Shown here: piece after piece, positions 18,869 through 63,609 of the stretch | Layout: each line of letters opens with the position of its first letter | How positions within the stretch are numbered: the first letter of the stretch is position 1 | Assembly (NCBI RefSeq): GCF_039536205.1 | Contig: NZ_BAAAYL010000001.1 | Span: 2,790,001-2,854,000 of the forward strand | Source of the DNA: Streptomyces sannanensis | GTDB taxonomy: Bacteria; Actinomycetota; Actinomycetes; Streptomycetales; Streptomycetaceae | Direction: 5' to 3' | Length of the DNA stretch: 64,000 bases | Made by a program: the position numbers and the translations under genes | Notes under the pieces: model-generated | Told to the model about the DNA's origin: nothing | What the model saw: only the letters and a program-made list of their open reading frames with translations | Database searches by the model: none

Positions 18869-18948
18869 GCGCCCCCAGGACATCGCGCCCCCAGGACATC
18901 GCGCCCCCAGGACATCGCGCCCCCAGGACATCGCGCCCCCAGGACATC
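18869..18948. repeat. 16-bp tandem repeat, five perfect copies
   Basis: GCGCCCCCAGGACATC is repeated five times without a mismatch and followed by a partial sixth (GCGCCCCCGG). It starts 23 bp after the CGNR stop. A second small array, GACGGCCGGG three times, follows at about 18978-19008, just before the dipeptidase stop. Confidence 0.95.
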
Positions 18949-19009
18949 GCGCCCCCGGCCTCCCGGCCGGGAGGCCGGTGACGGCCGGGGACGGCCGGGG
19001 ACGGCCGGG

Positions 19010-23728: not shown

Positions 23729-24086
23729 TGTGCCCTCCGGGCAGGGTGGAACAGGTGCGGGGCGCCCAGGCGGGCAGGGGGTGTCTGACGGATCTCCGCG
23801 GCGTCGCGACGCCTGGCACCGCGACTCCCCGTAGCCCTCCGGGCACGGGAGGTGCCCCCGTCGTTGTCGTCGGTCGCCGATGTCCCCCAGCTACCTCCCC
23901 CAGCTACCGCTGGGGGTGCCCCCAGAGGTGCCCCCACCGCATGCGGTGCCCGCCGCGGAGCGGCTGATGTCACCGCAGCCGCTTCGCGGCGGGCCCTCCT
24001 CCGCCTTGCGATCGCAGGCACCACCGGGACACCAGCCGCTCCGCGGCGGGCGCTCCTTCCCCCACGGCGACCCATTCAGACACCCT
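23729..24086. repeat. 358-bp gap between response regulator and kinase, filled with palindromic repeats
   Basis: Contains a CCCCCAGCTACC-family element (23884-23936, with CAGCTACCGCTG at its heart) and a strong hairpin whose arms GCCCGCCGCGGAGCGGCTG (23948-23966) and CAGCCGCTTCGCGGCGGGC (23976-23994) differ at one base pair. A further copy of the second arm is at 24033-24051. No credible gene. The hairpin may attenuate kinase expression relative to the regulator. Confidence 0.75.
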
Positions 24087-42737: not shown

Positions 42738-43958
42738 ATGCCCGAAGCCGTGATCGTCTCTGCCGCCCGCTCCCCCATCGGCCGCGCGTTCAAGGGGTCG
42801 CTGAAGGATGTGCGCCCGGACGACCTGACCGCGACCATCATCCAGGCCGCGCTCGCGAAGATCCCGGAGCTGGACCCGCGCGAGATCGACGACCTGATGC
42901 TCGGCTGCGGTATGCCGGGCGGTGAGCAGGGCCACAACCTGGGCCGTATCGTCGCCGTGCAGATGGGGATGGACCACCTCCCCGGCTGCACGATCACCCG
43001 TTACTGCTCCTCGTCGCTGCAGACCTCCCGTATGGCGATGCACGCCATCAAGGCCGGTGAGGGCGATGTCTTCATCTCCGCCGGCGTCGAGACGGTGTCC
43101 CGGTCCGGGAAGGGCACCAGCGACGGCCTGCCGGACACGCACAACCCGCTCTTCGCCGAAGCCGAGGCCCGTACCGCCGCCGTCGCGCAGAGCGAGGGCT
43201 CCGACTGGCACGACCCGCGCGAGGACGGCCTTGTCCCGGACGCGTACATCGCGATGGGGCAGACCGCGGAGAACCTGGCCCGGTTCAAGGGCATCACACG
43301 CCAGGAGATGGACGAGTTCGGCGTACGGTCCCAGAACCTCGCCGAGGAGGCCATCAAGAAGGGCTTCTGGGAGCGCGAGATCACCCCGGTGACGCTGCCG
43401 GACGGCACGGTCGTCAGCAAGGACGACGGCCCGCGCGCCGGCGTCACGATGGAGGGCGTCCAGGGCCTGAAGCCGGTCTTCCGCCCCGACGGCCTGGTCA
43501 CCGCCGGTAACTGCTGCCCGCTCAACGACGGCGCCGCGGCCCTCGTCATCATGTCCGACACCAAGGCCCGCGAGCTGGGCCTGACCCCGCTGGCCCGGAT
43601 CGTCTCGACGGGCGTCTCCGCCCTGTCCCCGGAGATCATGGGTTACGGACCGGTGGAGGCCAGCAAGCAGGCGCTGCGGCGGGCCGGACTGACCATCGAC
43701 GACATCGACCTGGTCGAGATCAACGAGGCGTTCGCCGCGCAGGTCATCCCGTCCTACCGGGACCTGGGAATCGACATCGACAAGCTGAACGTCAACGGCG
43801 GTGCGATCGCCGTGGGCCACCCCTTCGGCATGACCGGCGCGCGCATCACCACCACGCTGATCAACAGCCTCCAGTTCCACGACAAGCAGTTCGGACTGGA
43901 GACGATGTGCGTCGGCGGCGGCCAGGGCATGGCGATGGTCATCGAGCGGCTGAGCTGA
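42738..43958 (+). CDS. Acetyl-CoA C-acyltransferase (thiolase)
   Basis: Thiolytic cleavage of 3-ketoacyl-CoA, or the reverse condensation. 406 aa from ATG 42738, GGAG 5 nt upstream. Nucleophilic Cys in [14 protein letters not shown], the [17 protein letters not shown] active-site His, and the second Cys in [19 protein letters not shown] text near the C-terminus; NEAFAAQV is also conserved. FadA-type by length and motif spacing. The final codons (GAGCGGCTGAGC TGA) are the start of the first unit of the 100-bp tandem array. Confidence 0.92.
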
Positions 43959-44535
43959 GCTGCAACGGAGGGTAGGGGTCGCCCGAGGAACGAGGGCGGC
44001 ACCTGCCCGCAGCGGAAGCGAAGCGCAGCGCGACAGACAAAACGAGCGGCTGAGCTGAGCTGCAACGGAGGGTAGGGGTCGCCCGAGGAACGAGGGCGGC
44101 ACCTGCCCGCAGCGGAAGCGAAGCGCAGCGCGACAGACAAAACGAGCGGCTGAGCTGAGCTGCAACGGAGGGTAGGGGTCGCCCGAGGAACGAGGGCGGC
44201 ACCTGCCCGCAGCGGAAGCGAAGCGCAGCGCGACAGACAAAACGAGCGGCTGAGCTGAGCTGCAACGGAGGGTAGGGGTCGCCCGAGGAACGAGGGCGGC
44301 ACCTGCCCGCAGCGGAAGCGAAGCGCAGCGCGACAGACAAAACGAGCGGCTGAGCTGAGCTGCAACGGAGGGTAGGGGTCGCCCGAGGAACGAGGGCGGC
44401 ACCTGCCCGCAGCGGAAGCGAAGCGCAGCGCGACAGACAAAACGAGCGGCTGAGCTGAGCTGCAACGGAGGGTAGGGGTCGCCCGAGGAACGAGGGCGGC
44501 ACCTGCCCGCAGCGGAAGCGAAGCGCAGCGCGACC
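43943..44535. repeat. 100-bp perfect tandem repeat, 5.9 copies, beginning inside the thiolase gene end
   Basis: Units begin at 43943, 44043, 44143, 44243, 44343 and 44443 with CGAGCGGCTGAGCTGAGCTG, and the sixth stops short at 44535. I see no difference between copies after the first unit's start, apart from the last truncated end. Every unit carries the last codons and the TGA of the thiolase gene, so the array was made by copying from the gene's end outward. The minus strand is open in all frames through the array because 300 bp equals 100 codons; I do not regard these as genes. Confidence 0.97.
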
Positions 44536-44570
44536 ACTTCAATCCCATCGCGCCCCAGTCGTGACCAAAT

Positions 44571-44603
44571 CTCCCCCAGGATGTGACCTATCTCCTGGGG
44601 GAG
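44571..44603. terminator. Hairpin downstream of the 100-bp array
   Basis: CTCCCCCAGGA pairs perfectly with TCCTGGGGGAG. It probably ends transcripts that cross the array. GTGACC occurs just before and inside the hairpin (44561 and 44583). The remaining stretch to 44763 holds no gene I can recognise. Confidence 0.6.
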
Positions 44604-44763
44604 CACCATTCCCGCAGGTCACAAGCAGTCAAGGTTAAAAACGAGGTCCAAAGTCCTGTCCATTCGGTGACGTAATGCACTGACAAGAGGAGCGGGTCCG
44701 CTCCAAGCTGATGTAGACAGTCGTGGGACCGTCGGGGGTAGGACTGAAACCGGGAGTACGTCA

Positions 44764-45573
44764 GTGAGTGCGATGCCTCTTGCCCTGCTGCTGACCACGG
44801 CCGCTGCCACGGCCGTGGGCGCTGCCGCCCTGCATGCCGCTCATGGGCTGCGCAAGCAGGTCACCGCCCTCCGCGTCGAGCTCGCCGCCGCGAACGAGGG
44901 CCGCAGCGCCACCGTCCCAGCGCAGTCCCGGCACACCCCCGCCGCCGATATACGTGCTGCCGTCGCCGAGGCGCTCGCCGAGGAGCGGGAGCGCGAACTG
45001 GCCGAGGCACGCGCCTTCTGGGCCGCACAGGAGGCCCGCGACGCCGCCGACGCCCCCTCACCGCTGGGCGGTCTGGCGGGACTCGGCGACGACGCCGCCT
45101 TCTTCCTGCCCCGTCAGACGGACTTCACCGGCCTGGAGGCCGACGCGCTGGAGGCGGCCCTGGACGCGACCGAGACGTTCGACCCCTTCCCGGACGACTC
45201 CCCCGAACTGGCCGCGGCCCGCCGCCGCCATCCCTCGCACCCCGACTTCGTCCCCGTCCAGACGCCGGTCGTGACCGACCACGAGCGCACCCTGGCCCGC
45301 CTGGAAGAGCTCGCCGAGGCCGGCACGACGCTCATCGACGTGCGTCCCGGACCGCTCGGCACCCTCGATGTGTATGTCTTCGAGGACGGTACGACGCTCT
45401 GTATGACCCCCGGCCACCGCGAGACCGCGGAACGGCTCGCCGATTCGCTCCGCGCGGGCGACGCCCCGGCGCTGCTCGGAGGTTCCAGGGTTTCCGGTTC
45501 GTACGCGCTGACCTTCCTCTGCGGCGACGAGACCATCTTCGTCCTCGCCGACCGCGTGATCACGTCTCTCTAA
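44764..45573 (+). CDS. Conserved hypothetical protein with N-terminal membrane segment
   Basis: 269 aa, GTG with GGGAG 7 nt upstream. N-terminal hydrophobic stretch (PLALLLTTAAATAVGAAALHA) then a coiled-coil-like acidic region (VAEALAEERERELAEARAFW). The C-terminal half, with TLIDVRPGPLGTLDVYVFEDGTTLCMTPG and LTFLCGDETIFVLADRV, looks like a small beta-rich domain. No known family recognised. Stop overlaps the stop of the convergent gene by three bases. Confidence 0.7.
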   Translation: MSAMPLALLLTTAAATAVGAAALHAAHGLRKQVTALRVELAAANEGRSATVPAQSRHTPAADIRAAVAEALAEERERELAEARAFWAAQEARDAADAPSPLGGLAGLGDDAAFFLPRQTDFTGLEADALEAALDATETFDPFPDDSPELAAARRRHPSHPDFVPVQTPVVTDHERTLARLEELAEAGTTLIDVRPGPLGTLDVYVFEDGTTLCMTPGHRETAERLADSLRAGDAPALLGGSRVSGSYALTFLCGDETIFVLADRVITSL

Positions 45574-46411: not shown

Positions 46412-46533
46412 TGCTGTGGACGGAAAGCTTCACCGGCTCGCGACGCTCCCCCAGCTACCTCCCCCAGCTACCGCTGGGGGAGGTAGCTGGGGGAGCCGCG
46501 AAGCTTCCCGGCAGACCTTTCCGTCCACAGCGC
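46411..46533. mobile_element. 123-bp palindromic element (MITE-like)
   Basis: Outer arms GTGCTGTGGACGGAAAG (46411-46427) and CTTTCCGTCCACAGCGC (46517-46533) match at 16 of 17 positions. Inner arms of 23 bp (CTCCCCCAGCTACCTCCCCC plus AGC, 46446-46468) and (46473-46495) are perfect inverted copies around TACC. No transposase or clear target duplication. Could be a non-autonomous insertion or a giant terminator. Confidence 0.6.
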
Positions 46534-57176: not shown

Positions 57177-57283
57177 GGCTCGCCTCCCCTGTTACGTACG
57201 TACGTCCCCGGACACGGTACGGGACCGCGACCGGGGACGTACGTATCTGGCGGGCTGTCAGCCCGGCTCAGCCCGGTTGCTCC

Positions 57284-58771
<1,488 letters not shown>

Positions 58772-63543: not shown

Positions 63544-63609
63544 TCCCCCAGCTACCTCCCCCAGCTACCGCTGGGGGTGCCCCCAGGGGGACCCCCAGAG
63601 GTGTCCCCA
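63544..63609. repeat. CCCCCAGCTACC-family palindrome between mazG and the SurA-like gene
   Basis: CCCCCAGCTACCTCCCCCAG and CTACCGCTGGGGGTGCCCCC, followed by AGGGGGACCCCCAGAGGTGT, very close to the copy at 23884-23936. Confidence 0.8.

Follow-up and report, generated by a model that had tools for sequence, protein, structure and literature searches.

The array at the 3' end of a thiolase gene

The window analysed here is a 64,000-nucleotide stretch of the Streptomyces sannanensis genome, on a 7.4 Mb contig of a five-contig assembly. Its plus strand carries a thiolase gene (acetyl-CoA C-acetyltransferase, 42738-43958; NF005890, 799.5 bits against a cut-off of 580) with its stop codon at 43956-43958. 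Overlapping the end of this gene on the same strand is a tandem array at 43943-44534, which Tandem Repeats Finder reports as 592 bp with a period of 100, 5.9 copies, 100% matches, 0% indels and a score of 1184. Direct reading resolves the array into five full 100-bp units and one of 92 nt, whose identity is far beyond chance. The initial annotation had described a perfect 100-bp array at 43943-44535 with the thiolase stop codon in every unit; its start, its six units (the last partial) and their perfect identity are confirmed, and its end lies one base earlier, at 44534.

As the thiolase reading frame ends at 43958, every unit opens with the last five thiolase codons, including the stop (GAG CGG CTG AGC TGA). 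We divide the first unit into a target sequence and an element proper, both on the plus strand. The target, CGAGCGGCTG (43943-43952), is native coding sequence of the thiolase end, as judged from the native ends of element-free loci and from a clean 9-bp duplication at lipA. The element proper (43953-44042), defined by sequence, folding and a covariance model, runs AGCTGAG...GCGAC and closes with the linker AGACAAAA. The target recurs at 44043, 44143, 44243, 44343 and 44443, and the right edge of the array has no target copy.

The next gene is an ORF of 269 amino acids (44764-45573, plus strand) with no NCBIfam family, which is the right-hand neighbour in related loci as well. A separate perfect 11-bp hairpin, CTCCCCCAGGA/TCCTGGGGGAG, stands between the array and this gene (44571-44603). 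Within 44571-44680 this hairpin overlaps the arms TGTGACCT/AGGTCACA, which are followed by GTGACGTAATGCACTGACA. Similar sequence precedes the next gene in most loci read, with the element present or absent, and could be an operator or promoter region.

Rfam detected nothing at the array, either in a scan of the window at the gathering threshold or in one of 43900-44640 at E <= 1; the sole match in the window at the gathering threshold is a c-di-AMP riboswitch (RF00379, 59549-59780, minus strand, 58.8 bits). The window also contains another dispersed repeat, GC-rich and palindrome-like, with CTCCCCCAGCTAC in three copies (23883-23936, 46447-46500 and 63544-63597), a 24-bp tandem array (57283-57436; 6.4 copies, 87% matches) and a perfect 16-bp tandem array (18869-18956; 5.5 copies).

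A family of inserted elements in Streptomyces

The array is one locus of a family of ~90-nt structured elements almost confined to Streptomyces. By DNA search and covariance model, the S. sannanensis genome holds the element at four sites: the thiolase gene, lipA, a histidine-kinase ORF and one further ORF, the last three being the outcome of a genome search for further copies such as the initial annotation had proposed. DNA search found two diverged 122-bp units at the lipA end and a diverged, antisense, in-frame array of 4.1 x 105 bp in the kinase ORF. Covariance model R1 (built from 19 copies; 25 pairs, 14 with two-sided changes) found the fourth site, a single antisense copy at the 3' end of its ORF. 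The kinase array (L009, 3671-4096) adds about 140 residues to the ORF.

We surveyed 392 Streptomyces genomes, scoring the ten best candidates per genome under strict filters, and obtained element matches in 81 at E <= 0.001; the 311 genomes with no match indicate that the element is dispensable. Sites were counted by a hand tally of model matches and locus classification that includes degenerate copies. The thiolase 3' end is occupied in 67 genomes and the lipA 3' end in 16, with copies at both in 10. Minor sites are lipB (2), cobN (2), pstA, before pstB (3), trpB (1), the kinase (1), the further ORF (1) and one elsewhere (L129). Two element sites are antisense to their gene.

In an order-level sample, 30 of 147 genomes match, all of them Streptomyces (one of five genera), and in a class-level sample three of 148 do, in two of 81 genera. 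One of these (G601) belongs to another family, and its thiolase locus carries a diverged element at the same stop codon followed by a second target copy (L183, 1501-1593). For this copy we considered an independent insertion, horizontal transfer or a very old site. The element was absent from the thiolase ends of 15 further other-family genomes (one with only ~40 nt past the stop). In another-family locus (L213), 12 bp of the thiolase end are repeated once. An exact pattern search of named genomes returned 75 stretches, for example from S. anulatus, S. lydicus, S. virginiae, S. xanthophaeus and Streptantibioticus rubrisoli. The thiolase end directly precedes the match in 69 by a strict motif and in three more by eye, and the remaining three matches are preceded by an earlier unit. 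Plasmid and phage collections, searched in distant mode, gave no match to the element. The family is apparently undescribed; a literature search, with subscription journals mostly outside its reach, found no description of such a family in Streptomyces.

Filled and empty sites, compared between species, point to insertion with duplication of a short target. The cleanest pair is at lipA, where the duplicated target is the 9-bp GAGAAGCGC: the empty site in L392 reads GAGAAGCGC directly followed by GGCGCGGTGGAC (also given as GAGAAGCGC followed by GGCGCGGTGGACAACGCC), and the filled site in L081 reads GAGAAGCGC-element-GAGAAGCGCGGCGCGGTGGAC (also given as GAGAAGCGC-element-GAGAAGCGCGGCGCGGTGGACAACGCC). 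In the filled gene the new stop codon comes from the element, and the old LipA tail remains downstream as a fossil. Copies in lipB and cobN are flanked by direct repeats of similar length with mismatches, their empty sites coming from other species, and the trpB copy has a similar, imperfect repeat, judged solely by comparing the sequences on either side of it. The pstA insertion is evident and an empty site is known, with a direct repeat that is not clearly delimited. A motif search of 14 relatives found no empty site for the kinase.

At the thiolase gene the target repeat overlaps the element sequence, the six native bases after CGAGCGGCTG being equal to the element start. The repeated target is CGAGCGGCTG, which is why each unit repeats the thiolase end, and the tandem unit is thus target copy, element and linker. 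We rejected a 16-18 bp target duplication at this gene because the other sites suggest a target of ~10 bp and the AGCTGA that follows coincides with the element start. All 101 genomes of our first sample had a thiolase match. We read 28 thiolase loci that gave no element match there: all have a native end (GA[GA]CG[GC]CT.., stop), beyond which no element can be recognised, and in two of the genomes concerned (G051 and G094) the element is present at lipA. Going beyond the initial annotation, these comparisons identify the unit, at the level of sequence, as an insertion element with dispersed copies, whose duplicated target is what appears as the repeated gene end.

Slippage that simply duplicated the thiolase end and its spacer, without insertion of any element, would agree with the mostly homogeneous arrays within genomes and with L164, an element-free thiolase locus whose gene end is triplicated. 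This explanation is very improbable: the same structured sequence occurs at lipA, lipB, cobN, pstA, trpB and the kinase, empty sites are known at lipA, lipB, cobN and pstA, and the dispersed copies already contradict slippage alone. The L164 repeat itself comprises the last 17 bp of the gene, including the stop, three times in tandem with small differences, and reflects either slippage confined to the gene end or a scar left by a lost element.

Copy number varies widely at the inserted thiolase site. Among the 67 occupied genomes, 44 have one copy, 18 two and two three, with one genome each at four, five and six. The orthologous site therefore holds 1 to 6 copies in the 392 genomes, and it holds 11 in Streptomyces sp. 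JH14. Copy number at one locus thus differs among relatives, as in a VNTR or minisatellite, here across species; the variation that the initial annotation thought possible between strains is seen between species. Unit length ranges from 92 to 126 bp across genomes (100 in S. sannanensis). Tandem Repeats Finder called arrays at 31 of 33 loci, 30 of them with 92-100% unit matches and one (G266) with 75%, in keeping with the recent or homogenised expansion first proposed for S. sannanensis. Arrays inside ORFs (cobN of two species and the kinase) have 105-bp units, equal to 35 codons; at 3' ends the unit length can fall in any phase. All five loci checked with the element inside an ORF (lipB L048 and L133, cobN L125 and L138, kinase L009) stay open through the element in the gene's frame.

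Perfectly identical units, in a genome whose count is read from the assembly alone, could also reflect an assembly artefact that inflates copy number. We regard this as extremely improbable, as arrays at the same place in other genomes argue against it: G174 (4.7 x 100 bp) and G170 (4.2 x 100 bp) are each one-contig assemblies, and in the JH14 array (11.2 x 99 bp, with a target copy at its end) the first two units differ from the others by one base. An artefact would also leave the relatives with one or two copies unexplained.

RNA structure and constraint

The element together with a target copy folds as a long imperfect RNA hairpin, and the stop codons of the thiolase and of most lipA loci sit within its 5' arm. 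Plus-strand RNA of the unit folds at -48.9 kcal/mol (z -4.0), and the opposite strand at -36.6 kcal/mol (z -1.25).

We examined covariation separately at the two main sites. The thiolase set covers 63 of 67 loci (four with weak copies were left out), with 95 matches at E <= 1e-6 and 78 distinct copies; the lipA set has 23 copies from 16 loci. At each site taken alone, 13 of the 25 pairs show two-sided changes, a number that none of 500 shuffles reached in either set (shuffle means 5.6 at the thiolase and 6.5 at lipA); the rows behind these counts hold multiple copies from single arrays, and relatedness among rows can lift the counts above shuffles even without structure. Further pair types at lipA number 22, against 18.1 in shuffles, a value reached by five of 500. 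Paired cells make up 96.3% at the thiolase and 94.9% at lipA, falling to 35-46% and 27-46% when slid, for copies found by similarity or model and aligned to the model, a procedure that favours conserved, paired copies. Cells that depart from the commonest pair yet still pair number 132 of 203 (thiolase) and 67 of 96 (lipA), where cells count copies and not events. G-U cells exceed A-C cells, the counterpart of G-U on the opposite strand, by 172 to 25 at the thiolase and 55 to 9 at lipA; we read this excess, much of it supplied by a few mostly-U-G columns, as folding biased towards one strand.

The foot of the stem involves the target itself. At lipA, cobN and pstA the left target copy pairs with the right end of the element to form the outermost part of the stem, and the two covary. 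The lipA feet pair GAGAAG with GCTCGACC, GAGCAG with GCGCGACC and GACAAG with GCTGGCCC, and one column pair is C-G in 12, A-U in 9 and unpaired in 2 of the 23 copies. At cobN, CGCGGC pairs with GCGCGC and CGGGGC with GCCCGC, and at pstA GGAC pairs with GTCC. Exceptions are a lipA locus (L102) with AAG against GCCCGACC, the trpB copy, which has no paired foot, and the L132 copy, which fits at most partly. In another lipA locus (L095) the left target copy has CAG, which its stem partner matches, and the right copy is still AAG, a pattern such as a compensatory change in place would leave. One could go further and picture a mobile hairpin with a target-matched right arm, whose insertion is guided by, or copies, the target through a folded RNA or ssDNA intermediate and whose product is a copy-number-variable 3'-end RNA device; we hold this to be doubtful.

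A transcription terminator or attenuator, in which the hairpins end thiolase transcription, would account for hairpins that are stable, rich in GC and placed right at the stop codon, and for the strong fold of 43930-44625 (z -9.1 against 20 shuffles). But the region 43800-44900 holds 0 terminator-like sites with a T run, and on this ground we rejected an intrinsic terminator, which would have a U run behind its stem. Another hairpin stands downstream of the array, and the pstA and trpB copies directly precede pstB and a gene that we take to be trpA, in apparent operons. Termination is accordingly an unlikely role for the hairpins.

Copies group together by site, so that each main site resembles an ancient insertion passed on where it stands. 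We built a tree with a single copy from each of 81 loci (G601, 16 lipA loci, 10 others and 54 of the 67 thiolase loci, the 13 with weak copies being left out). It needs seven site changes for eight sites, the minimum, although it rests on 79 alignment columns and most of its forks are weakly supported. On a thiolase gene tree of 47 rows (19 with the element, 28 without), presence is clustered, with nine changes, three of them forced by starred branches; one of 500 shuffles is as low. Such a pattern would fit a history of rare gains and frequent losses. Among 18 other thiolase loci that BLAST found in the first sample of 101 genomes, six (L025, L026 and L029-L032) are degenerate or rearranged.

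The thiolase element is conserved above synonymous sites, beside a spacer that is near random. Mean identity is 0.884 for the element, a value biased upward because copies were detected by similarity, 0.815 for third codon positions (from the last 80 thiolase codons), 0.614 for the adjoining 40-nt spacer and 0.591 for the shuffled spacer, over all 210 pairs of 21 thiolase loci, taken from 54 because a right target copy follows within one unit (the other 33 were set aside).

The element could nonetheless be a purely selfish or inert palindromic repeat, its hairpin persisting for mobility or through overwriting by between-strain recombination. Its patchy presence, its frequent degeneration and absence, the passenger copies that keep the frame of cobN, lipB and the kinase and a resemblance to the palindromic elements of Rickettsia all speak for such a repeat, to which we give a modest chance. 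Less easily fitted to it are the compensatory changes among same-site copies that cluster together, lipA L095 included, and conservation above synonymous sites next to a near-random spacer.

Interpretation and related repeats

The reading we favour, at a probability of roughly 0.6, is that the array is a multiplied mobile palindromic element which, at the thiolase and lipA genes, would have been kept for the hairpin that it forms around the stop codon at the 3' end of the mRNA. The short element sits between ~9-bp direct copies of its target, cleanly so at lipA; its main sites look like old insertions handed down in place, and tandem units would arise by slippage or unequal recombination between the flanking direct repeats. 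Thiolase and lipA copies may be kept because the transcript forms a ~90-nt stem-loop with the stop codon in its 5' arm. Such a stem-loop would most likely act as a 3'-end mRNA structure that blocks 3'-to-5' decay, slows terminating ribosomes or both, in the manner of REP hairpins near stop codons in E. coli. Copies inside ORFs (lipB, cobN and the histidine kinase) would be passengers that preserve the reading frame and are tolerated. Ribosome stalling and lowered translation are reported for REP hairpins located within 15 nt of a stop (as cited in PMC12306157), and the hairpin here lies, by position, within 15 nt of its upstream stop. The action on the transcript's 3' end suggested at the outset thus gains indirect support, from compensatory pair changes, folding strand bias and conservation above synonymous sites.

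The element sits at the stop codons of housekeeping genes (thiolase, lipA, pstA and trpB) in an industrially central genus. In S. avermitilis a U-rich motif was found in only about 25% of transcript ends (PMC8780764). Natural strains with 0 to 11 hairpins behind one gene make the effects of 3' hairpins on mRNA decay and terminating ribosomes directly testable in a high-GC bacterium where U-rich terminators are the minority. Target duplications may, more generally, seed minisatellites, and an inserted element may turn into a maintained RNA structure.

By kind, the family is closest to the RPE, REP and BOX elements and differs from each; it also shares features with MITEs. Like MITEs it is short, non-coding and flanked by target duplications, clean at lipA (9 bp, GAGAAGCGC) and imperfect at lipB, cobN and trpB. 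Unlike MITEs it has, by eye, no terminal inverted repeat at both extremes: the outer pairs of the stem use the duplicated left target copy, and the right arm ends before the variable linker, several nucleotides short of the right target copy.

Rickettsia palindromic elements are ~150 bp long and inserted in metabolic genes, in frame within ORFs (PMC10969869). The Streptomyces element resembles them, by description and not by sequence, as a short palindromic element in metabolic genes that is inserted in frame at lipB, cobN and the kinase. It differs in that its copies lie mostly at gene 3' ends, are often tandem and show compensatory change at one site. REPs are high-copy repeats of 20-40 bp with a GTAG or CGTC tag (PMC3733652). 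As in the REP/BIME repeats of enterobacteria, the Streptomyces hairpins lie downstream of stop codons, but the element is ~90 nt long, occupies four sites in S. sannanensis, has no conserved tag and also occurs inside ORFs. Its size, low copy number and lack of a conserved tag led us to reject REP membership. Pneumococcal BOX elements are likewise dispersed and contain an internal module that is repeated in tandem a variable number of times. The Streptomyces family shares this variable tandem number; in contrast to BOX, the repeated unit is the whole element together with its target copy.
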